This document shows positions 6,258-33,092 of a stretch of DNA of 64,000 nt, piece by piece (positions within the stretch are counted from its first letter, which is position 1; every line of letters starts with the position of its first letter). The stretch comes from Flavobacterium tegetincola DSM 22377 (GTDB lineage: Bacteria > Bacteroidota > Bacteroidia > Flavobacteriales > Flavobacteriaceae): assembly GCF_000425485.1 (NCBI RefSeq), contig NZ_KE384384.1, forward strand, positions 124,001 through 188,000, in the 5' to 3' direction. A program made the translations under genes and the position numbers. The notes beneath the pieces were generated by a model. That model made no database searches. It was not told the origin of the DNA and saw only the letters and a list, made by a program, of their open reading frames with translations.

Positions 6258-8500
6258 TTCTTATCGACCTTATTGAATTCTTTGAACATTTCTAATAAAT
6301 TCATAATTGCATTTACCAAATCGTTGGTTTCTAGCAATAACGCAAAATACAGTTTACTATTTTTAGGACTTGTTTCTGTAGTTCTGATTCTATTAATTTG
6401 TTTGGTTATTAGATCAGAGACAGTGTCTAAAAGTAATTGCTTGTCTTTTAAAATGACATCAATTTTATTATACTCTTCATTTTTAAAACTATCTTCAAGC
6501 AATAACAACAACTTTTGAACTTGATCATCAATCGTCTTTAAACCTTTAATTTGATTGAATTTTAATTTCTTATGATTGTTATTAACGTGCGAATAACTAT
6601 TTGAAGTGATAAAGTCAATAGACTGGACCATATCTTGTAAGTATCCTAAAATCAAAATGTAAAATTTACTAGCTTCTACAGAATTATCATCTAAGTTTTT
6701 AATGAAGTAAAAAACATTGCTTTTTAGTTCGTCAATTTCTTTTTCAAGTTTCTTTTGATCTTTCTTATTTTGTTTCAATTTGGCTAAATCTTCCGAAGCC
6801 AAATTGTCAATTAAACTGGAGTACAAAGCACTTGTTCTTCGAAAAACCGTAGAAATTTGAGCCGAACTTTCCGTAATCATATCTTTTACGGTTCCAATAT
6901 CTTCTTTGCGTAAGCTTTTAATTTCAGCTTCGTATTTTACTTTTTTCTTATGTTTTCTAGAACTTCTATACAATAAGATTCCTAGTAAAAGCAACAATCC
7001 TACAAAGGCAAAAACTTCACCGATCTTTAAAATATAGGCCATTACAAAGGCCAATAGAAATGCAACAATTGCAGTAAAAAACCACCCACCTATTACTTTA
7101 AAGACACCTGCAATTCTATAAACAGCACTTTCCCTGTCCCAAGCTCTATCAGCAAATGAGGTTCCCATTGCCACCATAAACGTTACATAAGTTGTGGACA
7201 ATGGTAATTTCATTGAAGTACCAATGGCTATTAAAATACTGGCAACCATTAAATTTACGGAAGCTCGAACCATATCAAAAGCCGGTTCATCTTCGGTTTT
7301 CTTCGCTGATTTTTCAACAGTTTTGAAACGGCTGTCAATTTTAATTTGTAATTTTTTTGGTAAGAAATAATTCATTCCTTCTCCAATATTAACTCCCAAT
7401 CGAACGATAAAACGAGAAGCTAAATTGGGAGAAAATTTCTCTACTCCGTCACCTTGTCTAGAAAGATTAACACCTGTTTCGATAACGCTTTTTGCTTTTT
7501 TAGACGTCCATAACGTGACAACCATTACAATTCCAGCCAAAAGTAAAAAGTAAAATGGAGCTACAATAGAATCGTCTGCTAAAGCTCCCATCATAAATGT
7601 ATCTCCCGAGGCACCACTGGCTTGGAAAATTTCATAGGAGTTAAATGCCGCAATGGGTACACCGATAAAGTTGACCAAGTCATTTCCAGCAAAAGCCAAT
7701 GCCAATGCAAATGTCCCGATCAGGATAATTACCCGCAAAATATTGACTTTAAAAAAGCTGATAAGTATTTGAGAAAGGACAAGAAACAAAATAAAGTTTC
7801 CACCTAAAATTAAAAATTGGTGTTGATTTATCCAAGCATATTGATCTTTAGAAATAAACGAAACACCTTTTAAACCCTTTATTAATATGAAAAAAGTAAT
7901 GGCTGAAATGGCAATTCCACCAAAAATAGCACCAAAATATTTTAATTTTTTGTCATAATGAAACGTAAAAATCAGCCTTGAGATGTACTGAATAAAACTA
8001 CCTAAAGCGAAAGACAGAACGACCGAAAGCAATATACTGTACACGATTTCAGAAGCTTTCTTGGTATTGATGTACATTCCTAAATTGTCAAAAGTATCAT
8101 CAGTAGTATATATTTTATAAAGTGCCAGACAAACGGCAGCTCCTAAAAGTTCAAAAATGATGGAAACCGTTGTAGACGTTGGCAATCCTAAAGAATTAAA
8201 AACATCTAGTAACAAGATATCGGTAATCATTACTGCCAAGAAAATAATCATGACGTCATTAAAACTAAACATACTTGGAACAAAAATTCCGCTTCGGGCA
8301 ATTTCCATCATACCACTAGAAAACATTGCTCCAACCAAAACTCCTAAACTGGCAACAATCATTGTAGTTTTAAATGAAATTGCTTTTGAGCCTACTGCAG
8401 AATTTAAAAAGTTTACCGCGTCATTACTCACGCCAACAATTAAATCAATTATCGCTAAAACCCCTAAAGCAATCAACATTATAATGTAAATCTGATCCAT
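6254..8500 (-). CDS. PiT-family inorganic phosphate transporter with C-terminal PhoU-like domain
   Basis: The ATG at 8500 (MDQIYIIM) is chosen: it gives a normal PiT start leading into the first membrane helix, while the longer frame adds a charged Cys-containing leader. The 748-residue protein carries the PiT signature GVSNDAVNFLNSAVGSKA near the N-terminus and a related repeat (FAGNDLVNFIGVPIAA) in the middle, with about 11-12 membrane helices. Residues after about 500 are a long soluble helical region resembling PhoU/DUF47 proteins, which in other genomes are separate genes next to pit. Expected role: low-affinity phosphate uptake at the inner membrane, with the tail as regulator. Fusion to the tail is inference from helical pattern. 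Confidence 0.85.
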   Translation of the reverse strand: MDQIYIIMLIALGVLAIIDLIVGVSNDAVNFLNSAVGSKAISFKTTMIVASLGVLVGAMFSSGMMEIARSGIFVPSMFSFNDVMIIFLAVMITDILLLDVFNSLGLPTSTTVSIIFELLGAAVCLALYKIYTTDDTFDNLGMYINTKKASEIVYSILLSVVLSFALGSFIQYISRLIFTFHYDKKLKYFGAIFGGIAISAITFFILIKGLKGVSFISKDQYAWINQHQFLILGGNFILFLVLSQILISFFKVNILRVIILIGTFALALAFAGNDLVNFIGVPIAAFNSYEIFQASGASGDTFMMGALADDSIVAPFYFLLLAGIVMVVTLWTSKKAKSVIETGVNLSRQGDGVEKFSPNLASRFIVRLGVNIGEGMNYFLPKKLQIKIDSRFKTVEKSAKKTEDEPAFDMVRASVNLMVASILIAIGTSMKLPLSTTYVTFMVAMGTSFADRAWDRESAVYRIAGVFKVIGGWFFTAIVAFLLAFVMAYILKIGEVFAFVGLLLLLGILLYRSSRKHKKKVKYEAEIKSLRKEDIGTVKDMITESSAQISTVFRRTSALYSSLIDNLASEDLAKLKQNKKDQKKLEKEIDELKSNVFYFIKNLDDNSVEASKFYILILGYLQDMVQSIDFITSNSYSHVNNNHKKLKFNQIKGLKTIDDQVQKLLLLLEDSFKNEEYNKIDVILKDKQLLLDTVSDLITKQINRIRTTETSPKNSKLYFALLLETNDLVNAIMNLLEMFKEFNKVDKN

Positions 8501-9586: not shown

Positions 9587-10159
9587 ATGAAAGTCTATAC
9601 AAAAACGGGGGATAAAGGAACTACGGCACTTTTTGGAGGAACCCGTGTTCCGAAAAATCACATTCGAATTGAAAGTTACGGAACTGTGGATGAATTAAAT
9701 TCACACATTGGATTGATTCGCGATCAAGACATCAATGTACTTTATAAAGGTATTTTGGCAGAAATTCAGAACAAACTTTTTACAGTTGGCGCCATTTTAG
9801 CAACTCCTCCTGACAAAGAGGTATTGAAAAATGGCAAAGAGCGTCTCAACATTCCAAAAATTGCAGAAAAAGATATCGAGTTCATGGAAAATGCCATTGA
9901 CAGTATGGAACAACATCTTCCACAGATGACTCATTTTGTACTTCCAGGAGGTCATACTACTGTGTCATATTGTCATATTGCACGTTGTGTTTGCCGTCGG
10001 GCGGAACGATTAGCAGTACATTTAAACGAAAATGAAGCCGTTGACGATTATGTTTTGAAGTACCTTAACCGACTTTCTGACTATCTATTTGTGTTGGCAC
10101 GGAAGTTGTCCCAAGACTTAAACGCAGAAGAAGTGCAGTGGATTCCTGAAAAGTATTAA
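9587..10159 (+). CDS. ATP:cob(I)alamin adenosyltransferase, PduO type
   Basis: The 190-residue protein has the PduO-family N-terminus KVYTKTGDKGTTALFGG (ATP-binding loop), then YGTVDELNSHIG, FVLPGG, and the conserved RCVCRRAER segment followed by YLNRLSDYLFVLAR near the C-terminus. Length and motifs match the family. It transfers the adenosyl group of ATP to cob(I)alamin in the cytoplasm, making adenosylcobalamin. In this window it would supply the cofactor for the CarH-like regulator at 19.6 kb from B12 imported by the locus at 27-33 kb. It is monocistronic as seen here. Confidence 0.92.
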   Translation: MKVYTKTGDKGTTALFGGTRVPKNHIRIESYGTVDELNSHIGLIRDQDINVLYKGILAEIQNKLFTVGAILATPPDKEVLKNGKERLNIPKIAEKDIEFMENAIDSMEQHLPQMTHFVLPGGHTTVSYCHIARCVCRRAERLAVHLNENEAVDDYVLKYLNRLSDYLFVLARKLSQDLNAEEVQWIPEKY

Positions 10160-18640: not shown

Positions 18641-18755
18641 CATTCAAGGAAAGAAAATGACTCGATAGCTCAGTTGGTAGAGCACATCACTTTTAATGAT
18701 GGGGTCCTGGGTTCGAGCCCCAGTCGGGTCACAAATTGACTTATTTCCTTGAATG
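18641..18755 (+). repeat. 12-bp perfect inverted repeat bracketing the first tRNA-Lys
   Basis: CATTCAAGGAAA at 18641-18652 is the exact reverse complement of TTTCCTTGAATG at 18744-18755. In the transcript the arms would pair to form a stem closing over the whole first tRNA. This looks like a precursor processing stem. Confidence 0.75.
18659..18731 (+). tRNA. tRNA-Lys (anticodon TTT), copy 1
   Basis: A 73-nt cloverleaf: acceptor GACTCGA pairs with TCGGGTC (one T-G), D arm AGCTCAGTTGGTAGAGC, anticodon loop CTTTTAA with anticodon TTT, T arm with GGTTCGAGCC. Discriminator A; CCA is not encoded. Confidence 0.97.
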
Positions 18756-18759
18756 TTTA

Positions 18760-18832
18760 GACTCGATAGCTCAGTTGGTAGAGCACATCACTTTTAATGA
18801 TGGGGTCCTGGGTTCGAGCCCCAGTCGGGTCA
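18760..18832 (+). tRNA. tRNA-Lys (anticodon TTT), copy 2
   Basis: Identical over all 73 nt to the copy at 18659-18731, 28 nt downstream in the same transcript. Discriminator A; CCA is not encoded. Confidence 0.97.
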
Positions 18833-18833
18833 C

Positions 18834-18868
18834 AAAGGTCGTTCGTTTTTCGAATGACCTTTTTTTTT
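18834..18868 (+). terminator. Terminator-like hairpin directly abutting tRNA-Leu
   Basis: Stem AAAGGTCGTTCG/CGAATGACCTTT (18834-18845, 18851-18862) followed by T through 18868. The T tract ends at the base before tRNA-Leu. Confidence 0.8.
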
Positions 18869-18951
18869 GGCCACGTGGAGAAACGGTAGACTTGCCAGCT
18901 TGAGGGGCTGGTGCTCGAAAGGGCGTGTGGGTTCGAATCCCATCGTGGTCA
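18869..18951 (+). tRNA. tRNA-Leu (anticodon GAG)
   Basis: An 83-nt class II tRNA: acceptor GGCCACG with CGTGGTC, anticodon stem CCAGC/GCTGG with loop TTGAGGG (anticodon GAG), a long variable arm, and T arm GGGTTCGAATCCC. Discriminator A; CCA is not encoded. There is no room for its own promoter next to the preceding T tract, so it may depend on read-through. Confidence 0.95.
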
Positions 18952-19011: not shown

Positions 19012-19503
19012 AATTTCAAGACATTTCTAAAATTTCAAAATCTTGAATTAATCAGACAAGTATTGTAAGCTTTGAATTCCTCCTCAGATCCCTTTAATTA
19101 TAACGCAAAACTCTCTGAATGCAGTACTACTTTCTGATTTAAGCATTAGCATCATTATCCGCCAAAATCCGTAAGCCAACCACATTCCTCTTACAATAGT
19201 GTTTTTCCACTCTTCTCTCTATTTAACGACAAATAAAAACATCAAAGAATGTGATGGTTCTACCACAGAATTTAGCTTCTAAATCATTGATGCCCTTAAA
19301 CACCTATTCACGAGGTATGTTTTACAATGTCTTTGCAATATTACCTCAACTGCAAACTAACAAACTAAACCCTATCTTGTTTACACTTTTTAAACAAATA
19401 GAAGAACAAAAACAAAGAGCAACAAATCGCTATACTTCAGGCTATTAAAGCATGTAGTACTATAATAGCGTCATTTTTTTTGTTATATAGTCGAAAGAAA
19501 ACG

Positions 19504-19549
19504 TTAAACAAATTAGTTTGTAAAAGATAATAACTGTACTTTTGTTTAA
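19504..19549 (+). promoter_or_regulatory. Promoter and candidate operator of the CarH-like gene
   Basis: TACTTTTG at 19537-19544 fits the -7 element; TTG at 19518-19520 gives a short 16-bp spacer. A perfect 9-bp inverted repeat, TTAAACAAA (19504-19512) and TTTGTTTAA (19541-19549), brackets this promoter, and a further ACAAA-TTAG-TTTGT dyad lies at 19508-19521. Overlap with the -7 box suggests negative autoregulation; operator function is inference. Confidence 0.45.
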
Positions 19550-19562
19550 GATAAATTAAAAT

Positions 19563-20468
19563 ATGATGAACACTTTTAGAAATGCATATAGTATTAAAGA
19601 CTTGGAAAATATTTCAGGTATTAAAGCGCATACCATTCGTATTTGGGAAAAAAGATACAACATCTTAGAACCTATGCGTACTGATACCAATATTCGTTAT
19701 TACGACTTTATGAGTATCAAAAAGTTGTTAAATATTACATTGCTGCACAACCACGGTTACAAAATATCTAAAATTTCGCAGTATCCATCAGAGGACATTC
19801 CTAATTTAGTGAAGGAAATCATCACAGACAAGACGTATAAAAGTCATGCAATAAACGCATTCAAAGTGGCCATGTTGAACTTTGATCGCGAAGCATTTCT
19901 TAAAGCCTATGAGCAACTCTTAGCAAATAAATCTTTTACCAGTATTTTTAAAGACGTTTTTGTTCCGTTATTAAATGAAATCGGACTTTTATGGCAAACT
20001 AATACTATTACGGCAGCTCACGAACATTTCATCACTAATTTGATCAAACAAAAATTAGAGGTTGAACTTGAAATAATTTCCAGGTCCCAAGTTATAGTGC
20101 AGGACAAAGTATTTATTTTGTTTCTACCTATTCAGGAAATTCATGATTTGGGATTAAAATATTTAAATTACGAAGTAGTTAAAAACGGCTATAAAACCAT
20201 TTACTTAGGCGAAAATATTGAAATTGAAGATTTACACAAAATGACTGAACAATTTGAGTCGCCTGTGTTTCTTACGTATATCACTACTTCACCCATGGCA
20301 GATGAAATAAATGGCTATATCACAAAGTTACAACAAACAATTTTAGACAATTCACCTCAGGCTGAATTGTGGATTACCGGTATTGGAATTGACAGTTTGC
20401 AAATGGAAACTGCTTCAAACCGAACGCGACTGTTCCTTTCTATGGATCACATTATTAAAACGCTATAA
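19563..20468 (+). CDS. MerR-family regulator with cobalamin-binding-type domain (CarH/LitR-like)
   Basis: The 301-residue protein starts with a MerR DNA-binding domain (YSIKDLENISGIKAHTIRIW, then RYYDF). Residues about 95-170 match the four-helix cobalamin cap, with Trp144 followed by Glu154-His155 (WQTNTITAAHEH), the same spacing as W131/E141/H142 of Thermus CarH. Residues about 180-301 match a B12-binding Rossmann domain with EIHDLG, whose His194 corresponds to the lower cobalt ligand. CarH tetramers bound to adenosylcobalamin repress carotenoid genes in the dark and fall apart in light. Position directly before crtI-crtB-crtZ supports this role. The upstream acidic residues of the ExxxDxHxxG motif are changed (Leu and Glu). 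Start may be either ATG of the MM pair. Confidence 0.85.
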   Translation: MMNTFRNAYSIKDLENISGIKAHTIRIWEKRYNILEPMRTDTNIRYYDFMSIKKLLNITLLHNHGYKISKISQYPSEDIPNLVKEIITDKTYKSHAINAFKVAMLNFDREAFLKAYEQLLANKSFTSIFKDVFVPLLNEIGLLWQTNTITAAHEHFITNLIKQKLEVELEIISRSQVIVQDKVFILFLPIQEIHDLGLKYLNYEVVKNGYKTIYLGENIEIEDLHKMTEQFESPVFLTYITTSPMADEINGYITKLQQTILDNSPQAELWITGIGIDSLQMETASNRTRLFLSMDHIIKTL

Positions 20469-20481
20469 TTTTAAAATAAAA

Positions 20482-21939
20482 ATGTCACAAGAAATTGCAA
20501 TTATAGGTTCGGGATTTTCATCTTTATCAGCCGCTTGCTATTTGGCTCAAGCCGGAAACAAAGTAACGATTTACGAAAAAAATGCTTCCATTGGAGGCAG
20601 AGCTCGACAATTAAAGAAAGAAGGCTTTACCTTTGATATGGGTCCGAGCTGGTACTGGATGCCCGACGTTTTTGAACGCTTCTTTAATGATTTTGGAAAA
20701 AAAACCAGCGATTATTACCACCTTATAAAACTTTCTCCAGCCTATCGCGTATATTACGGTATCAACGATTTTGTAAGTATTGCAGATAATTTAGAAGATA
20801 TCATTAGCACATTTGAATCTATAGAAAAAGGAAGCGGCGTTAAATTAAAAAAGTTTATGGCTAATGCCAAAAGCAATTATGACATCGCAATCAAGGATTT
20901 AGTATATCGTCCAGGTGTTTCGCCACTTGAACTGATTACCGTTGAAACGGCGAAAAAAGTAGGCGAATTTTTCAGCACAATAAGTAGAGACGTGAAAAGT
21001 GAATTTAAAAACCAAAGGCTGATTCAAATTCTAGAATTTCCTGTTTTGTTTTTAGGTGCAAAACCTTCCGACACTCCTTCGTTTTATAGTTTCATGAATT
21101 ATGCCGATTTTGGTTTAGGGACTTGGCATCCAGAAAACGGTATGTTTGATGTGGTTAAAGCTATGGAAAGCTTGGCAAAAGAGTTGGGCGTTTCATTTGA
21201 ATTTAATGCCAATGTAAATAAAATTGTTGTTGAAAACGAGAAAGCTGTAGCCCTAATTGTAAATAACTCGCGTGTGGAAGCTGACGTAATTTTAAGTGGT
21301 GCAGATTACCACCATTCGGAAACTTTATTAGATTCTGAATACAGAATGTACTCTGAAAAGTATTGGGATAGCAGAGTTTTTGCACCTTCTTCCCTACTCT
21401 TCTATGTAGGTTTAAATAGAAAATTAGATAACATTGCACATCACGCTTTGTTTTTTGATGTTGACTTTGACCAGCATGCACGAGACATTTATGATGATCC
21501 AAAATGGCCCGATAATCCATTATTTTATGCTAATTTTCCCTCTGTAACAGATCCCTCAACAGCACCAGAAGGTATGGAATCTGCTTTTTTCTTAATACCT
21601 TTAGCACCAGGAATTGAAGATACTCCAAGTTTACGCGAAAAATATTTTGATAAAATTATTGACCGATTTGAAATTTTAACACAACAGAAGATTAAAAATA
21701 ATATTATATTTAGCGAATCGTTCTGCAAAAATGATTTTGTTTCTGATTACAATTCCTATAAAGGAAACGCATACGGAATGGCAAATACGTTAATGCAAAC
21801 TGCTTTTTTGAGACCAAAATTAAAAAGCAAGAAAGTAGGCAATTTATACTTTACCGGTCAACTGACAGTTCCCGGCCCAGGTGTTCCTCCGGCTTTGATT
21901 TCCGGAAAATTAGTATCTGAATTAATTAAAAAAAATTAA
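20482..21939 (+). CDS. crtI: Phytoene desaturase
   Basis: The ATG at 20482 (MSQEIAIIGSG) is used, because the FAD-binding motif IAIIGSGFSSLSAA must sit at the N-terminus; the longer frame overlaps the regulator. The 485-residue protein continues with TIYEKNASIGGRARQ, FDMGPSWYWMPD and the C-terminal NLYFTGQLTVPGPGVPPALISG, all typical of CrtI. It desaturates phytoene to lycopene at the membrane using FAD. It lies 13 bp after the regulator and 7 bp before crtB. Confidence 0.95.
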   Translation: MSQEIAIIGSGFSSLSAACYLAQAGNKVTIYEKNASIGGRARQLKKEGFTFDMGPSWYWMPDVFERFFNDFGKKTSDYYHLIKLSPAYRVYYGINDFVSIADNLEDIISTFESIEKGSGVKLKKFMANAKSNYDIAIKDLVYRPGVSPLELITVETAKKVGEFFSTISRDVKSEFKNQRLIQILEFPVLFLGAKPSDTPSFYSFMNYADFGLGTWHPENGMFDVVKAMESLAKELGVSFEFNANVNKIVVENEKAVALIVNNSRVEADVILSGADYHHSETLLDSEYRMYSEKYWDSRVFAPSSLLFYVGLNRKLDNIAHHALFFDVDFDQHARDIYDDPKWPDNPLFYANFPSVTDPSTAPEGMESAFFLIPLAPGIEDTPSLREKYFDKIIDRFEILTQQKIKNNIIFSESFCKNDFVSDYNSYKGNAYGMANTLMQTAFLRPKLKSKKVGNLYFTGQLTVPGPGVPPALISGKLVSELIKKN

Positions 21940-21946
21940 ACTGCCT

Positions 21947-22786
21947 ATGAAATCCATTTTTGACACCGTTTCATCTGATTGCAGTCGAATTGTAACCCGT
22001 TCGTACAGTACCTCTTTTTCTTCTGCCGTAAAAATGCTGGCTCCAGCTATTCGTCAGGATATTTATAATATTTATGGGTTTGTACGATTTGCAGATGAAA
22101 TTGTGGACAGTTTTCACGATTACAATAAAATTGCACTTTTTGAACGTTTCGAGATCGACTTGCATTTGGCTTTGACAGAAAAAATTAGTTTAAACCCTAT
22201 TTTAAATTCGTTCCAGCATACGGTAAATAAGTATGCTATAGACATAAAACTGATTGATGCATTTATGCACAGTATGCGATTGGATTTATACAAATCTGAA
22301 TACAAAACTACTGAGGAGTACCATCAATATATTTACGGTTCTGCTGACGTAGTAGGCTTAATGTGCCTAAAAGTATTTGTAAAAGGTGATGTGGAAATGT
22401 ACGAGAATTTAAAGGAATCTGCTATGCGATTGGGATCTGCGTTTCAAAAGGTCAACTTTTTGCGGGATTTGAAAGCAGATTTCGAAGATTTGAGTCGTAC
22501 CTATTTTCCAAATACAGATCTTACCAAATTAGATGAAAATTCTAAAAACGAAATTATAAACGAAATTGAAGCCGACTTTAAAGCAGCTTACAAAGGAATT
22601 GTTAATCTGCCTTTAGAAGCTAAATTCGGAGTTTATACGGCTTATGTATATTATAAAAAATTGCTCACAAAACTAAAAAATACACCTTCTACCGAAATTA
22701 AAAACACGCGTATTCGGGTATCTGATTATCAGAAATTTGGCTTGTTTGCAAAATGTTACTTTACGTACAAATTAAATATTATCTAA
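21947..22786 (+). CDS. crtB: Phytoene synthase
   Basis: The 279-residue protein shows the squalene/phytoene synthase pattern: SYSTSFSSAVKML, YNIYGFVRFADEIVDSF (first Asp-rich motif), YIYGSADVVGLMCL, and FQKVNFLRDLKADFEDLSR (second Asp-rich motif). It condenses two geranylgeranyl diphosphates to phytoene. It lies between crtI and crtZ with 7- and 21-bp gaps, so one transcript is expected. Confidence 0.95.
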   Translation: MKSIFDTVSSDCSRIVTRSYSTSFSSAVKMLAPAIRQDIYNIYGFVRFADEIVDSFHDYNKIALFERFEIDLHLALTEKISLNPILNSFQHTVNKYAIDIKLIDAFMHSMRLDLYKSEYKTTEEYHQYIYGSADVVGLMCLKVFVKGDVEMYENLKESAMRLGSAFQKVNFLRDLKADFEDLSRTYFPNTDLTKLDENSKNEIINEIEADFKAAYKGIVNLPLEAKFGVYTAYVYYKKLLTKLKNTPSTEIKNTRIRVSDYQKFGLFAKCYFTYKLNII

Positions 22787-22807: not shown

Positions 22808-23248
22808 ATGGGAATTCACATTTTAGTATTCTTTCTGACTTTTTTCTTCATGGAATTTATGGCTTGGTTCAGTCATAAATATATTATGCACGGATTTTTA
22901 TGGAATCTTCATGCAGATCATCATAAGAAAGACCACGATTCATGGTTTGAACGCAATGATGCTTTTTTCATCATTTATGCAATCATCAGTATTGGATTTT
23001 TTCTGCTGTGGCAAACTGGAATTTTAGCAATAGGTTTAGCAATAGGTTTGGGTATTTTTGCATACGGTTTAGCTTATTTCATGGTACATGACATCTTCAT
23101 CCACCAAAGATTCAAGTTGTTTAGAAATGCCAACAATAAGTATGCAAAAGCAGTACGACGCGCTCACAAAATGCACCACAAGCATATTGGAAAAGGCGAT
23201 GGAGAGTGTTTCGGAATGCTTATAGTACCTTTTAAATATTTTAAATAA
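22808..23248 (+). CDS. crtZ: Beta-carotene hydroxylase
   Basis: The 146-residue membrane protein has four helices and the His clusters of the CrtZ/fatty acid hydroxylase family: HKYIMH, HADHHKKDH, HDIFIHQRF and HKMHHKH, which bind a di-iron centre. It hydroxylates beta-carotene rings to zeaxanthin. It is the last gene of the carotenoid unit; no lycopene cyclase gene follows before the terminator. Confidence 0.93.
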   Translation: MGIHILVFFLTFFFMEFMAWFSHKYIMHGFLWNLHADHHKKDHDSWFERNDAFFIIYAIISIGFFLLWQTGILAIGLAIGLGIFAYGLAYFMVHDIFIHQRFKLFRNANNKYAKAVRRAHKMHHKHIGKGDGECFGMLIVPFKYFK

Positions 23249-26738: not shown

Positions 26739-27779
26739 TTAATCGTTAAAGTAAAATCCATTTGGAATTAGACCAACGCTAAATTGTTTCTGTAACGCAC
26801 CAGTAGTAGAGTAAATAAAAACTTCTCCATCCGAAGCATAATCCTTTGCATCACCTACAAAAATGCGGTTATCTTCTACTCCAAAACCATATAATGTAGT
26901 TGCAAGCGATGTAAACAATGGCGTACTGCTTATTGTTGTTGCAGATAAATTATCTTTAAAAACAGCTGCGTTAATCGTAAAATATACTTTACCATCTTCT
27001 ATGGCTAAATTTTGTGCATTGATCAAGTCCGTCATCACAACCTCAGATACTTTCTGATTTGTGTTCATATTAATTTTGATCAGTCTACTTGCTTCTGTAA
27101 AATTTGCACATAATACGTACAAGAATCCATTTTCCTCTTCCATTGAATTTGGTGAAATTCCAACATCAATCGTACTTTCAATTGCATTTGTAGCAGCATT
27201 AATAATCGTGATCGAATTTCCTTCTCCGTACGTACCATTTGCTACATACAATTTTCCATCCTCTGCAATAATCTTTTCTGCAATTGCATTAACGGCAATA
27301 GTGCTTTCCACTTCTAAGGTAGACAAGTTAATCACAGCTATAAAATCGTCTGTTAAATCGCTAAAACTTCCTAAATTGGTCACATAAGCTTTTCCGTTTT
27401 CAACCACACCATAACGCGGAACATTAAATCCGGTTTCAATAGTAGCAATTTTTTCAAAAGTGTAACGGTTTACAACTGTAATTTTATTAGAACCATTTGA
27501 AACAATAAATGCACGATCTCCATCAAAAAACATAGACTGCACGTAACCACCAATTCCTTGACCTGGGTTAACAGCTCCAAAAATATCTTGATTTACCGTC
27601 ATTAAATCATCTGTAATAAATGAAATTGATCCCGCTGCACCATTTCCTTCATTGACAATTATAACGCCATTGTCATAAGCACCAAGTTGCACATCAGGCG
27701 TATTGGAATCGTCATCGCTACAAGAAACAAATAGTATTGCACTTGCAAGTGCCATGAAAAACAATCTAGTAATCTTCAT
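26739..27779 (-). CDS. Surface beta-propeller lipoprotein (YncE/DUF5074-like), candidate BtuG B12-binding protein
   Basis: The 346-residue protein has a lipoprotein signal (ILFVSCSDDDSN); the acidic residues after the Cys fit a surface export signal of Bacteroidota. The rest is repeats of about 42 residues typical of YVTN/YncE propellers, for example KITVVNRYTFEKIATIETG, AVINLSTLEVESTIAVN and ITIINAATNAIESTIDVG, enough for about seven blades. It lies 4 bp after the BtuB-like receptor, under the same cobalamin riboswitch. In Bacteroides, BtuG is a propeller lipoprotein that binds B12 on the cell surface and caps BtuB; the same role is inferred here from fold, anchor and position. Confidence 0.8.
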   Translation of the reverse strand: MKITRLFFMALASAILFVSCSDDDSNTPDVQLGAYDNGVIIVNEGNGAAGSISFITDDLMTVNQDIFGAVNPGQGIGGYVQSMFFDGDRAFIVSNGSNKITVVNRYTFEKIATIETGFNVPRYGVVENGKAYVTNLGSFSDLTDDFIAVINLSTLEVESTIAVNAIAEKIIAEDGKLYVANGTYGEGNSITIINAATNAIESTIDVGISPNSMEEENGFLYVLCANFTEASRLIKINMNTNQKVSEVVMTDLINAQNLAIEDGKVYFTINAAVFKDNLSATTISSTPLFTSLATTLYGFGVEDNRIFVGDAKDYASDGEVFIYSTTGALQKQFSVGLIPNGFYFND

Positions 27780-27783
27780 AATT

Positions 27784-29619
27784 TTAAAAATTTAATGTTA
27801 AGTTTAATGCATAATTGCGACCGGGAAGCGGCCTGTTTTCTACGCTTTCGTAGTTTTCATTCCAAAGATTTAAAACCTTAAACCCTAATGTATAGTTGCT
27901 GTGTTGATCCAAATCTGCAGAAATCCCGAAATTTGACACGGTATAATTTTCTATAATCTTTTTAGGATTATTATCTGTTTGTGTAAACACCTCTCCGTTA
28001 AACAAGTACTGGTAGAATGCAGCAAATCGGCTGTAAGAATATGCCAATGATGCCGTAGTTTTATGAAAAGGTACAAAGGTGAGCTGCTTTCCTGTCTTCT
28101 CGTTTTCCGAATCTGTATAGGAATAATTTGCATGAAAATCAAAATGATGCTTATGCACTACTTTGCTGTAATCCATCGAAATTTCACTACCAAATATTGA
28201 AACGCGTTCTGTGTTTGTGGGTCTAAAAACGCCACCATTTTGCGGAAGCCAACGAATCATGTCCTTAATTTTAGAATAAAAAACAGTGGCCGTGATGCTA
28301 AAATTTTGCCACTGAAATACATTTCCAATTTCGCCTTGTACTGCTTTTTCTGGTTGTAAATCAATGTTTCCAGCTCCTTGCCAATATAAATCATTGAAGG
28401 TCGGAATTCTGAAATTCTGCGAAAAATTTGCCTTTAACGTATACCATTTAAACGGTTTATAAACTGTTCCGACCGCATATAAAAGTGGACTTTTATAGTT
28501 ATTAGTGACTTCCTTCCTTAAACTCCAATCGTACGAAAAATGTTCATTCACACTTTGCTTAAACTGCAGTGCAAAACCAGTAATGCTTCTTTTTTCAGTT
28601 GCAATATCAGAACCATCGCCCTTATTTTGGGTAAAATCAGCTACAAAATCCACTTGCGTTGCCGCATTGATTCGGTAATTTAAATTATATTTTGCCAACA
28701 GCGTTTCGACTTTCCCAAACGTAAAATTGTCCTGAGCAATGTTTCCAAAATATTTATATTCTTCACTTAAAAAGCCTACTTTTAAATTTGACGTAAAATT
28801 GCCCAAATAGGTCGTCAAGTCGGCCAAGTTTCGAGTATTAAAATCTCGGTATTTTGTTTTACTGTCCGTTGGGTTAATTAATGAAAAATGCCTTTCGCCA
28901 TCAAAAAACTGGCTGTATAACTTTAATGTATTTCTTGAATTTATCTTGTATCCAAATCCAACATTATAACTTGAATTGTAAAATTGTCCATTTAAATTTG
29001 TCCGATTTGAGTTCAAATAATCGTAATTATTATCCGAACTGTTTCGAGAAACACTTCCAAAGAAACTCATTTTTTCGGTAGCATATTTCACCTGATAATT
29101 GGCTGTCAATGTATTATAACTGCCATAATTAACATTCAATCGATTGGAAAACAATTTCCTAAAATTCAGAGTGGTATTTAAATGAATACTTCCACCAATG
29201 GCACTCGTCCCGTACAATGAGCTTCCTCCACCCGCTCGAACACTAATGGAATTGAAATCTGATGTACTAATAGTGTTGAAATCCGTTTGCCCGTTTAGTT
29301 GGGAATTAATGTTGATTCCATTCCAAACCACAGCAGTTTGCTGAGCCGTGGTGCCACGAAAAGAAGGCGAAGAAACCATTCCTAAACCATTTTCTTTGAA
29401 ATAAATTCCTGTAGAAAAGTTTAGAAGACTGGTTAACGAGGGTTGATTTTTTTGTATAATAGAGTCATTGAGTTGCTGGACGTTCTGAGCATTTGAGTAG
29501 TCACGCAATTTTCGATCTGCAATATCAACTTCGTCTAATTGGACAGCAACAGGCGTTTGTGCCAATGATTTTTGGCAAACTAACATTCCGAATAAAAATA
29601 TAAAATATCGTAAAGTCAT
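27784..29619 (-). CDS. btuB: TonB-dependent vitamin B12 receptor (BtuB-like)
   Basis: The 611-residue protein has a signal peptide (LVCQKSLAQ), a plug domain (LTSLLNFSTGIYFKENG, SFRGTTAQQTAVVWNGINI, GTSAIGGSIHL) and a 22-strand-like barrel ending with Phe (LNLTLNF). It lacks the carboxypeptidase-like N-domain of SusC proteins. Vitamin B12 as ligand is supported by the cobalamin riboswitch directly upstream, the BtuG-like gene downstream and the divergent btuFCD genes. The start ATG lies 7 nt after a 7-bp hairpin. Confidence 0.9.
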   Translation of the reverse strand: MTLRYFIFLFGMLVCQKSLAQTPVAVQLDEVDIADRKLRDYSNAQNVQQLNDSIIQKNQPSLTSLLNFSTGIYFKENGLGMVSSPSFRGTTAQQTAVVWNGININSQLNGQTDFNTISTSDFNSISVRAGGGSSLYGTSAIGGSIHLNTTLNFRKLFSNRLNVNYGSYNTLTANYQVKYATEKMSFFGSVSRNSSDNNYDYLNSNRTNLNGQFYNSSYNVGFGYKINSRNTLKLYSQFFDGERHFSLINPTDSKTKYRDFNTRNLADLTTYLGNFTSNLKVGFLSEEYKYFGNIAQDNFTFGKVETLLAKYNLNYRINAATQVDFVADFTQNKGDGSDIATEKRSITGFALQFKQSVNEHFSYDWSLRKEVTNNYKSPLLYAVGTVYKPFKWYTLKANFSQNFRIPTFNDLYWQGAGNIDLQPEKAVQGEIGNVFQWQNFSITATVFYSKIKDMIRWLPQNGGVFRPTNTERVSIFGSEISMDYSKVVHKHHFDFHANYSYTDSENEKTGKQLTFVPFHKTTASLAYSYSRFAAFYQYLFNGEVFTQTDNNPKKIIENYTVSNFGISADLDQHSNYTLGFKVLNLWNENYESVENRPLPGRNYALNLTLNF

Positions 29620-30116: not shown

Positions 30117-31262
30117 ATGAAAATTTCCACAACTACAATTTTACTTTTTACCTTCGTATTATTTTCGCTATCGGGTTGCAAAGAAAGCAGTACCGAAACT
30201 AATAAAGAGCCCATCAGCACTGAAAATCAAGTGCGTTATGCAACCGGTTTTTCAATAGTAAAGTACGATGGCTATTCGCTAGTAACTGTGGTAAATCCGT
30301 GGCCCAATGCAACAAAAAATTATACATACATTTTAAAGGAAAGTGGCGGAATCATTCCTGATAGTTTGCAAAATAACATTCAAATTTCAGTTCCTGTTAA
30401 AAATATTGTGGTAACTTCTACCACTCATATTCCATCTTTAGAATTGCTTGAAGTAGAAAATGCGTTGATTGGATTTCCTAATTTGGACTATATTTCTTCT
30501 GAAAAAGTACGAAGTAGAATTGAAGCCGGAAAAGTGACAGAATTGGGACAAAATCAAGACCTGAATACTGAAGTGATCATTGATTTAAATCCAGACGTTT
30601 TAATCGGATATGGAATTGACAATAAAAATCCAACGTTAGATAATCTGGAAAAAAGTGGTATAAAAATAATGCTTAACGGGGATTGGAACGAGCAAACTCC
30701 GTTGGGAAAAGCAGAATGGATCAAGTTCTTTGGTGTTTTATTTGGCAAAGAGCAAAAGGCGAATTCCATATTTTCAACCATTGAAAAAGAATACAAAACT
30801 ACAGTTGATTTAGTCAAAAACAGTTCGATAAAACCTTCTGTTTTAGCAGGTGATATATTTGAAGGAACGTGGTACATGCCAAAAGGTTCTAGTTGGGGTT
30901 CACAACTGATTAAGGAAGCGGGCGGAGCTTATTTATGGAAAGAAACTGTTGGCACAGGAAGCTTGGCTTTGTCCTTTGAAGTTGTTTTTGACAGGGCAAA
31001 AGACGCTGATTTTTGGATCACTTCAGGGCAATTTTCAACGTTGCAAGAGATGAAGAAAGCAAATACGCATTACAGTCAATTTGCTGCGTTTAAGAACAAA
31101 AAAGTATATTCATTTAGAAATAAAAAGGGAAAAACAGGCGGCATTTTGTATTACGAATTAGCACCCAATCGACCTGATCTAGTATTGAAAGATTTAGTGT
31201 CTATTTTTCATCCTGAATTAGTGCCCAATTACAAGCCGTTCTTTTTTGAACAGATGAAATAA
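30117..31262 (+). CDS. btuF: Cobalamin ABC transporter substrate-binding lipoprotein
   Basis: The 381-residue protein has a lipoprotein signal (FSLSGCKESS) and a class III periplasmic binding fold of the BtuF/FhuD family: VVNPWPNATKNYTYIL, NIVVTSTTHIPSLELLEVENALIG, IIDLNPDVLIGYG, a helical backbone, and GGAYLWKETVGTGS. It presents corrinoid to the inner membrane transporter. It is the first gene of btuF-btuC-btuD and divergent from the riboswitch-controlled receptor. B12 specificity comes from context; the family alone would also allow siderophores. Confidence 0.85.
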   Translation: MKISTTTILLFTFVLFSLSGCKESSTETNKEPISTENQVRYATGFSIVKYDGYSLVTVVNPWPNATKNYTYILKESGGIIPDSLQNNIQISVPVKNIVVTSTTHIPSLELLEVENALIGFPNLDYISSEKVRSRIEAGKVTELGQNQDLNTEVIIDLNPDVLIGYGIDNKNPTLDNLEKSGIKIMLNGDWNEQTPLGKAEWIKFFGVLFGKEQKANSIFSTIEKEYKTTVDLVKNSSIKPSVLAGDIFEGTWYMPKGSSWGSQLIKEAGGAYLWKETVGTGSLALSFEVVFDRAKDADFWITSGQFSTLQEMKKANTHYSQFAAFKNKKVYSFRNKKGKTGGILYYELAPNRPDLVLKDLVSIFHPELVPNYKPFFFEQMK

Positions 31263-31270
31263 AGAATTTA

Positions 31271-32296
31271 ATGACCAACAAGCACCATTCTATTTTATTT
31301 ATAACTTTCACCGTTTTATTGGTGTGCTTCTTTTTATTGGACTTAACGTCAGGACAAGTTTCTATTCCGCTAAAAGAAGTATTTAAAATTTTAAGTGGAC
31401 AAGACGCCTCAAAATCAACATGGGAATACATCATTCTAAATTTTAGATTACCAAAGGCAATTACTGCGATACTCGTTGGAATGGGACTTTCGATCAGTGG
31501 ACTTTTGATGCAAACTTTATTTAGAAATCCATTAGCAGGACCGTATGTTTTAGGGTTGAGTTCGGGTTCCAGTTTAGGAGTTGCATTTGTAATTTTAGGT
31601 GCAGGCGTATTACCAAGCTTCTTACAAACTGCCGTAATATCGAGTTACGGTGTAATTTTAGCATCATTTTTAGGAAGTTTTTTAGTGCTTTTGGCCATAT
31701 TAGTTGTTGCGCAACGATTGCGAAATACCATGTCCATTTTGATCGTAGGATTGATGTTTGGAAGTTTTGCAGGAGCAATTGTTAATGTTTTGAGTTACTT
31801 TAGTACAGCAGAGCAATTGCAAAAATTTACCTTTTGGTCCATGGGTAATTTGGGTAATTTGCCTTGGCCTTCCATTGGAATTTTAGGAACTACTGTAACC
31901 GTTGGATTAGTGTTGAGTTTAGTAAGTATAAAATCCTTGGACGCCTTATTACTAGGAGAAAATTATGCTAAAAGCGTCGGGTTGAACTTTAAGAAAGCAC
32001 GGTTAATTATCATCATTGCCACCAGTATTTTAGCGGGAAGCATTACAGCTTTTGCCGGTCCGATTGCTTTTATTGGCTTAGCAGTTCCGCATATTGCCAA
32101 GTTAGTGTTTCAAACCAGCAGCCATAAGACACTGTTCTTTAGTACAGTCTTGATCGGTGGAATTTTGATGTTAGCTTGCGACATCATTTCGCAAATGCCG
32201 TTTTTAGAAATGACGTTACCTATTAATGCAATCACGTCAATTATGGGTGCTCCAGTGGTAATCTGGTTATTAATTGGTAAGAAAAACATTCAATAA
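31271..32296 (+). CDS. btuC: Cobalamin ABC transporter permease (FecCD family)
   Basis: The 341-residue protein has about ten membrane helices and the FecCD/BtuC signatures RLPKAITAILVGMGLSISG, LMQTLFRNPLAGPYVLGLSS, SILAGSITAFAGPIAFIGL and the late helix with VPHIAK. It forms the dimeric inner membrane channel. It starts 8 bp after btuF and ends 7 bp before btuD. Confidence 0.9.
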   Translation: MTNKHHSILFITFTVLLVCFFLLDLTSGQVSIPLKEVFKILSGQDASKSTWEYIILNFRLPKAITAILVGMGLSISGLLMQTLFRNPLAGPYVLGLSSGSSLGVAFVILGAGVLPSFLQTAVISSYGVILASFLGSFLVLLAILVVAQRLRNTMSILIVGLMFGSFAGAIVNVLSYFSTAEQLQKFTFWSMGNLGNLPWPSIGILGTTVTVGLVLSLVSIKSLDALLLGENYAKSVGLNFKKARLIIIIATSILAGSITAFAGPIAFIGLAVPHIAKLVFQTSSHKTLFFSTVLIGGILMLACDIISQMPFLEMTLPINAITSIMGAPVVIWLLIGKKNIQ

Positions 32297-32303
32297 TCTG
32301 GTC

Positions 32304-33092
32304 ATGAAAAACGAAATCATTTTAGAGGCACATCCAATTTCTATTGGTTACCGCGACAAGAAAAATATAAAAACCGTAGCCACTGACGTCAAAATTCAAT
32401 TGCGAAAAGGAAAACTGATTGCCTTAGTCGGGATCAATGGTGTGGGAAAATCAACGTTATTGAAGACAATTACTGGCATACAAAAACCTCTGTCAGGATG
32501 TGTGATTTTGAATGAAAATAACATAGAAAATTATACGTCAAGCGAATTAGCACAACAAATGAGTATGGTTTTAACCGAAAAATTACCACCCAGTAATTTA
32601 ACCGTTTTTGAGTTGGTTGCCTTGGGACGACAACCGTACACCAATTGGCTTGGTACGCTGACTTCTGAAGATACGAATAAAGTTCATGAGGCGATTCGCT
32701 TGACGAAAATCGAACATTTGGCACACAAAAAACATTTCGAAATCAGTGACGGCCAGCTGCAAAAAGTATTAATTGCAAGAGCATTGGCTCAAGATACTCC
32801 TTTAATTATTTTAGACGAACCTACCACGCATTTGGATTTACTGCACAAATTTACTTTACTGCAATTGCTGCAAAAATTAGCCAAGGAAACTGAAAAATGC
32901 ATTTTATTTTCAACACACGATATTGATTTAGCAATTCAACTTTGTGATGAAATGATTATCATGACGCCTGAAAAAACCGTGCAAAGTACGCCTTGTATAT
33001 TGATTGAAAAAGGTGTTTTTAATGCACTTTTTGACGATAGAAGCATCAGTTTTGATAAAGAAAAAGGGAAATTTGTTTTTGGGAAAATTTGA
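32304..33092 (+). CDS. btuD: Cobalamin ABC transporter ATP-binding protein
   Basis: The ATG at 32304 (MKNEIILEAHP) avoids overlap with btuC; an earlier in-frame start at 32274 lies inside it. The 262-residue protein has Walker A GINGVGKSTLL, Q-loop region MSMVLTE, Walker B LIILDEPTTHLD and the switch His in STHD. The ABC signature is degenerate: ISDGQ in place of LSGGQ. It powers the BtuC channel. No terminator was recognised directly after it. Confidence 0.9.
   Translation: MKNEIILEAHPISIGYRDKKNIKTVATDVKIQLRKGKLIALVGINGVGKSTLLKTITGIQKPLSGCVILNENNIENYTSSELAQQMSMVLTEKLPPSNLTVFELVALGRQPYTNWLGTLTSEDTNKVHEAIRLTKIEHLAHKKHFEISDGQLQKVLIARALAQDTPLIILDEPTTHLDLLHKFTLLQLLQKLAKETEKCILFSTHDIDLAIQLCDEMIIMTPEKTVQSTPCILIEKGVFNALFDDRSISFDKEKGKFVFGKI

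Follow-up and report, generated by a model that had tools for sequence, protein, structure and literature searches.

A carH-like gene heads a carotenoid operon in a flavobacterium and encodes a putative B12-based light sensor with glutamine at the position of Thermus His132

CarH of Thermus thermophilus (class I LitR; PDB 5c8d/5c8e/5c8f, 3whp) contacts adenosylcobalamin (AdoCbl) through stacking of Trp131, a hydrogen bond from Glu141 and His177 as lower ligand, and in the light-exposed protein the His after the Trp (His132) becomes an upper cobalt ligand (PMC10442372). Both Thermus and Myxococcus CarH are repressors, and the published CarH operator consists of 11-bp direct repeats, nAnnTnnACAn (PMC8156234). 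LitR proteins have been sorted into five classes, of which class I binds AdoB12; the available text of that classification does not mention flavobacteria (PMC9758184). CarA of Myxococcus xanthus, a CarH paralogue repressing crt genes, lacks the Trp of the Wx9EH motif and is B12-independent (PMC9304148). The need for His132 in disassembly is disputed: the H132A variant of Thermus CarH was mostly tetrameric in light in one study, whereas an earlier report had described disassembly (PMC10442372). According to a myxobacterial paper, this His is found in many but not all CarH homologues (PMC9304148). CtMerR of Chloracidobacterium thermophilum (PDB 8jbs, 8jbt) has Arg at the His132 position, yet passes from tetramer to monomer in light, and SasPcob has Gln there (PMC11796333). 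A light sensor without this His is therefore possible; by analogy with the tetrameric H132A variant, a His-less protein might respond poorly to light.

A relative of the organism studied here is isolate GF1, which we take to be a member of the genus Muricauda. Its gene peg.3275, a MerR gene with a B12-binding domain, lies upstream of phytoene dehydrogenase, phytoene synthase and hydroxylase genes, with lycopene cyclase elsewhere, as at the locus described below; in 2020 the GF1 authors suggested control of the zeaxanthin genes by photooxidative stress (PMC6974559). The main idea pursued here is thus not new, a B12-domain MerR gene before zeaxanthin genes being already in print for a relative; peg.3275 is known from annotation, and the available text of that paper gives no residues, operator or ligand position (PMC6974559). 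MerR genes alongside crt genes have also been described in Sediminicola and Nonlabens (PMC4732338, PMC11855829). Chryseobacterium lacus has a light-induced carotenoid and its authors found no car/lit operon (PMC7064467), indicating that flavobacteria have other routes. Among the main texts of the open-licence literature, in the portions available, we found no experimental test of a flavobacterial or Bacteroidota CarH/LitR/MerR protein of this kind.

The 64-kb stretch of DNA that we analysed (the window) contains a carH-like gene at 19563..20468 on the forward strand, an exact open reading frame of 301 aa. Its product has the domain order of Thermus CarH, with a MerR DNA-binding domain at about residues 9-74, a four-helix B12 bundle at about 92-175 and a Rossmann domain at about 179-301. 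Pfam searches of the 301-aa protein matched MerR_1 at residues 9-74 (2.3e-15) and B12-binding_2 at residues 97-167 (7.8e-14), and the Rossmann B12-binding model PF02310 gave an E of 0.067, which is not significant. The recognition helix, RIWEKRY, differs by one conservative change from the RxWERRY of CarH/LitR class I. Thermus CarH chains (3whp/5c8d) are the closest solved relatives by sequence (phmmer, E ~1e-12), and the CarH equivalog NF052513 is the best NCBIfam match, at 70.6 bits against a cut-off of 400. We rejected an alternative identity as MliR, an iron regulator of MerR type from Bizionia (also a flavobacterium): as described in the available text, MliR has no effector domain.

An AlphaFold2 model built from 62 sequences (mean pLDDT 88.2, pTM 0.84) ranked full-length Thermus CarH first in Foldseek. 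The top of the VIA-align list consisted of Thermus CarH, CtMerR and photocobilin structures; the model aligned with the Thermus CarH cobalamin domain (9s06_D) at Z 17.7 (2.4 A, 193 residues, 16% identity) and with CtMerR at Z 17.6 (3.2 A, 219 residues). Other B12 domains, those of methionine synthase/MetH type and of the monomethylamine corrinoid protein, reached Z 14.6-15.6; the CarH match of the predicted structure is thus only a few Z units over the general B12 fold, and fold alone separates weakly. Upstream of carH, three tRNA genes lie at 18659-18951 within a 1-kb gap, two of them with equal Rfam scores (70.1 bits), perhaps reflecting a recent duplication. One genome of the same genus (G364) carries two carH-like genes (C3:31616 and C4:217128), 49% and 48% identical to the window's.

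The cofactor contacts of CarH are recognizable in the window protein. A preliminary description had placed Trp144, Glu154, His155 and His194 at the AdoCbl-contact positions, and this is borne out by phmmer (to 3whp/5c8d) and MAFFT alignments, which pair them with the W, E, H and H of Thermus CarH; all four are kept in 80 of the 80 named relatives examined. The Wx9EH motif, the adenosyl cap, is present as W144, E154 and H155. The same description had regarded the acidic residues before His194 as non-standard, which proved incorrect: E192-I-H194-D-L-G197, containing the lower-axial His, fits the published B12 motif E/DxHxxG (PMC9304148, PMC8156234). The actual departures are Q191, E220, T238/I240, I274 and Q145. 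Where the motif tail reads x41 SxT/V x22-27 GG, the window protein has T238-Y-I240 after 40 residues and then 32 residues to G273-I274; at these positions Ser238 occurs in 55 and Arg274 in 58 of the 80 named relatives. The SignatureFinder light signature comprises GxxW, EH, GxxH and GxxxP, of which GxxW and EH are present and the other two are broken by Q191 and E220, in place of the expected Gly and Pro (PMC11796333); P220 is found in 78/80 named relatives and Asn191 in 77/80. Because the motif tail is absent and the NCBIfam score lies below the CarH cut-off, we do not class the protein as CarH in the strict sense.

We also assembled a wider set of 201 rows from family and phylum searches, window included; 194 rows (191 distinct) have all four cofactor residues and seven have lost at least one (L160, L191, L192, L196, L198, L201 and L203), figures that describe a mostly Flavobacteriaceae set picked by similarity to the window protein and not phylum frequencies. 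These seven copies and L212, from other Bacteroidota, lack the lower-axial His or other cofactor residues and are candidate B12-independent, CarA-like regulators.

The pigment genes follow the regulator directly, as the preliminary description had said, and lie on the same strand. The crtI ATG lies 13 bases past the carH stop, and crtI (20482..21939) encodes a phytoene desaturase matching NCBIfam CrtID NF058655 at 734.8 bits (cut-off 640); crtB, for phytoene synthase (21947..22786), matches Pfam SQS_PSY at 2.4e-42. The third gene, for a crtZ-like carotene hydroxylase (22808..23248, forward strand), is assigned by likeness: it holds a conserved position and, although it gave no credible Pfam or NCBIfam match, its product is 37-41% identical to Pantoea 'sterol desaturase family' genes among the eight tblastn matches listed. 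Thermus CarH likewise has an adjoining phytoene synthase gene, but there carH and the phytoene synthase gene are divergent, whereas the window has a single operon, carH-crtI-crtB-crtZ. For CtMerR, the available description contains no crt operon context (PMC11796333).

This gene order recurs. All but one (L055) of the 80 named loci have crtI directly after carH on the same strand (79 loci; gap -3 to 189 bases, median 40); crtB was detected in 75 loci and crtZ in 74. Among the loci without crtB or crtZ, three (L035, L058, L062) end about 600 bases after carH; the sequence continues further in L055 and L109, which lack both crtB and crtZ, and in L075, which lacks crtZ. The L055 carH-like gene (6478-7371) has no crt gene in 15 kb, though the usual flanking genes of the crt locus are present, and pigment genes may have been lost there with the regulator kept. 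Another arrangement marks a second clade, in which residue 145 is mostly Gly or Thr (13 rows, tree support 99; among them L120-L125, L127-L130 and L133). Among the six loci inspected for gene order (L222-L227), a fasciclin-domain gene is divergent to carH in the five scanned for it (L222, L223, L224, L225, L227), and crtI, crtB and crtZ relatives lie beyond that gene in five of six (L222, L223, L224, L226, L227); they were not found at the L225 locus. In the window organism's own genome, lycopene cyclase is encoded elsewhere (G000:C9:57235), CarR_dom lycopene cyclase was not matched, and the three photolyase-family matches are all on contigs other than the window's.

The promoter region carries a conserved, operator-like site. 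Bacteroidota promoters have a -7 box with the consensus TAnnTTTG. Upstream of carH, the box TACTTTTG (19537..19544, forward strand) is conserved in relatives and is overlapped by a putative operator half-site, TTTGTTTAAG (19541..19550, forward strand), mostly TTTGTTTAAC in relatives; the window reads TACTTTTGTTTAAG at this putative operator, and the half-site form overlapping the box is TTTGTTTAA(C). An inverted copy (GTTAAACAAA on the forward strand) lies on the reverse strand at 19503..19512, 38 bp upstream of the main site, and a third TTTGTTTAA match at 19390..19398, also on the reverse strand. Across the 64-kb window TTTGTTTAA occurs at chance level (7 matches, 6.48 expected), and its clustering stands out, 3 of the 7 falling within 175 bp upstream of carH. 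The promoter also bears on the start codon. Translation probably begins at the second ATG (19566), which lies 29 nt from the start of the box, the spacing seen in 77 of 110 distinct promoter fragments; initiation at the first ATG (19563) would leave 26 nt, a spacing shared by 20 of 110. Met2 is invariant in 62/62 aligned proteins.

These 110 fragments come from upstream of carH-like genes after identical ones were dropped (L021, L110 and L118 have no box). They show TAnnTTTG followed by TTTAAC, with the three T conserved at 94-100%, the two A at 90-99% and the C at 60%. In the named loci, 82 boxes lie within 60 nt upstream of carH, and 67 of them are followed by TTTAA; among 193 other boxes, located 15-60 nt upstream of ORFs, 3 are, and two of these three stand just before crtI (L037, L059). 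The placement of this motif over the carH boxes suggests self-repression. Its letters vary with the regulator: in the clade with Gln at position 145, TTGTTTAA accounts for 79 sites in 69/79 loci (shuffled mean 6.88), and in the Gly/Thr clade TTGTCTAA accounts for 14 sites in 9/11 loci (shuffled mean 0.18), TTGTCTAA being at chance level in the Gln clade (1 versus 0.9). The 16 class-level crt-linked loci showed no clear enrichment of either form, with 0 and 4 sites against shuffled means of 0.13 and 0.63 (up to 4 per shuffle). A motif over the -7 box that varies with the regulator clade points to a repressor acting on its own promoter.

The site resembles the published CarH operator in part. 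TGTTTA and TGTCTA both fit TGTnnA, the core of nAnnTnnACAn on the opposite strand (PMC8156234); in having such a putative core over the promoter the window is like Thermus. Conservation does not extend to the outer T of the published repeat, and regular 11-bp half-site repeats were not found, unlike the published direct repeats. Secondary half-sites numbered 152 against a mean of 90 in mononucleotide shuffles, 36 of the 152 being the site's own palindromic overlap. Sigma-70 and terminator scans gave no more matches than shuffles. A larger regulon was considered and rejected: the own genome contains 2 instances of TANNTTTGTTTAAS and 8 of the reversed control, and TANNTTTGTTTAAC occurs in 59/61 genus genomes with per-genome counts generally not above the reversed control. 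The second own-genome site (L139:4420-4520; G000:C8:78446) reads TAAATTTGTTTAAC, is followed after 30 bp by a second TTTGTTTAAT, and lies upstream of a receiver-only response-regulator gene; it is probably due to chance, as the motif is no commoner genome-wide than its reversed control. For the lycopene-cyclase gene (G000:C9:57235) there is a TATTTTTG box, but TTTAA does not follow it. That relatives share the conserved residues, the gene order and the promoter site is not what chance would produce.

The window also encodes candidate functions for cofactor supply. A PduO-type cob(I)alamin adenosyltransferase is encoded at 9587..10159 on the forward strand (TIGR00636, 188 bits; cut-off 108.45). 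On the reverse strand, a cobalamin riboswitch (RF00174, 29650..29847; 101 bits, gathering threshold 31.5) precedes a TonB-dependent receptor gene (27784..29619) that we call BtuB-like mainly because of this riboswitch, its best NCBIfam match, TIGR01779, scoring 106.3 bits, far under the cut-off of 599.7. Downstream of the receptor gene lies a gene for a DUF5074 beta-propeller protein (26739..27779, reverse strand), which may have a BtuG-like role. BtuF/BtuC/BtuD-like ABC importer genes follow on the forward strand at 30117-31262, 31271-32296 and ~32310-33092 (Peripla_BP_2, FecCD, ABC_tran). The BtuC model is the best NCBIfam match of the permease, and the best matches of the binding protein and the ATPase are a haem protein model and an iron-citrate model, all below cut-off; with no B12-specific NCBIfam cut-off reached, the receptor and importer names are weak and B12 specificity of these genes is presumptive. 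No match to CbiC was found in the own genome (completeness 99.99), so that the corrinoid supply is probably external, and three B12-binding domains over cut-off are present there, in ORFs of 713-1148 residues. Together, this gene content is consistent with corrinoid being imported and turned into AdoCbl. Elsewhere in the window, a Flavo-1 RNA (RF01705, 43254-43331) lies just past the start of a large opposite-strand ORF whose product resembles carbamoyl-phosphate synthase.

The window protein departs from Thermus CarH at position 145, where Gln stands in place of His132, as it does in 80/80 named relatives; with no His beside the Trp, it resembles CtMerR, a MerR protein with a B12 domain whose cofactor elements, unlike those of the window protein, include GxxH and GxxxP (PMC11796333). 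Among the 191 distinct proteins of the wider set with all four cofactor residues, position 145 is Gln in 152, Gly in 10, Leu in 8, Thr in 4, Arg in 3, His in 1 and another residue in 13. Without the upper-ligand His, the Thermus mechanism is not transferable whole. A Bacteroidota lineage of crt-linked CarH-like AdoCbl sensors, with Gln, or Gly, Leu, Thr and others, replacing His132, could work without the bis-His state, with loss of the adenosyl group alone releasing DNA, perhaps with a CtMerR-like Glu reorientation; we put this forward tentatively, as an idea that we stop just short of favouring. Neither the lineage-wide absence of the His132 equivalent in these flavobacterial proteins nor the clade-matched operator was met with in the available literature.

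Overall, we think it probable that the gene encodes a CarH-like, AdoCbl-based light-sensing repressor controlling its own operon, carH-crtI-crtB-crtZ; its mode of action is most likely that of CarH, minus the bis-His step. The preliminary proposal of light-controlled pigment through B12 thus holds up in part: the fold, cofactor residues, crt linkage, operator-like promoter site, B12-uptake-like genes and adenosyltransferase speak for it, whereas the score of 70.6 against 400 bits, the lack of SxT/V and GG, the two missing elements of the four-part light signature and the fast-changing lineage do not. In the dark, an AdoCbl-bound oligomer would sit on the half-sites TTTGTTTAA(C) over the -7 box and block RNA polymerase. 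In the light, the Co-C bond would break and the adenosyl group would leave from under Trp144 and Glu154/His155; the oligomer would then disassemble or release DNA, and the pigment genes would be expressed. Given Gln145 at the Thermus His132 position, we propose that cobalamin in the light state has a water or hydroxo ligand, with possible help from Glu154, instead of the bis-His form. The AdoCbl itself would derive from corrinoid imported through the riboswitch-controlled receptor and the ABC importer and converted by the PduO-type adenosyltransferase.

This copy of the gene has diverged more than most. In a rapidly computed tree, which contains long branches (Thermus, Persicobacter, L203, L196) and serves only for the window's near neighbourhood, its closest relative is the Flavobacterium antarcticum protein (87% identical), with which it shares a stem branch of 0.64. 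Of the positions conserved in 90% or more of 60 relatives, the window protein departs at 13, P220E and N191Q among them, and the F. antarcticum protein at 12, compared with a median of 2 over 62 rows (two other rows have 16); the departures and the long stem branch indicate that the window copy may have drifted. Against F. antarcticum the whole gene has pN 0.084 and pS 0.758, given as raw proportions alone because synonymous sites are saturated or nearly so; pN rises from 0.024 in the DNA-binding domain through 0.057 in the bundle to 0.135 in the Rossmann half, with pS at 0.64-0.83. The gene is under purifying selection, with the cofactor half changing fastest. These departures, the stem branch and the fast Rossmann half, together with the existence in the phylum of copies that have lost cofactor residues (7/201 rows), would fit a B12-independent crt regulator like Myxococcus CarA, in which the fold is kept, AdoCbl dependence is lost and some other signal relieves repression. 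We nevertheless consider such a regulator unlikely, as Wx9EH and E/DxHxxG are intact, including the Trp whose loss marks CarA (PMC9304148), and pN/pS in the Rossmann half is still about 0.16.

The protein might instead sense corrinoid, the operon being switched by AdoCbl supply or redox state with any light response incidental or absent. B12-uptake-like genes, a riboswitch and an adenosyltransferase in the same window would suit such a sensor, as would a supply that is probably external given that CbiC was not found in the own genome. Its targets, however, are pigment genes, and it keeps the adenosyl-capping Trp and Glu/His, a motif absent in MetH (PMC8156234); we therefore judge a corrinoid-level sensor quite unlikely. 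Very improbable, in our assessment, is an activator that remodels the promoter spacer in the manner of MerR-type proteins: although the MerR domain is present, the conserved half-site covers the -7 box and the start region and not the spacer, and the CarH proteins of Thermus and Myxococcus are repressors (PMC8156234).

If a CarH-like repressor working without His132 is borne out across this lineage, its natural variants at that position would settle the dispute over the need for His132 in disassembly, and the matched operator letters of the two clades (TTGTTTAA and TTGTCTAA) would show how CarH reads DNA; natural proteins without a His132 equivalent are also possible new optogenetic parts. Should the CarH-like reading of the window gene be right, B12-based light control of pigment would be widespread among flavobacteria: a match to the window protein at E 0.001 or better is present in 164 of 199 family genomes, at least three of these matches (G023, G149, G186) being weak and near 1e-4. 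Cells unable to make B12, a condition judged here from the own genome alone and one marker gene (CbiC), would then need the vitamin of other microbes to control their photoprotection.
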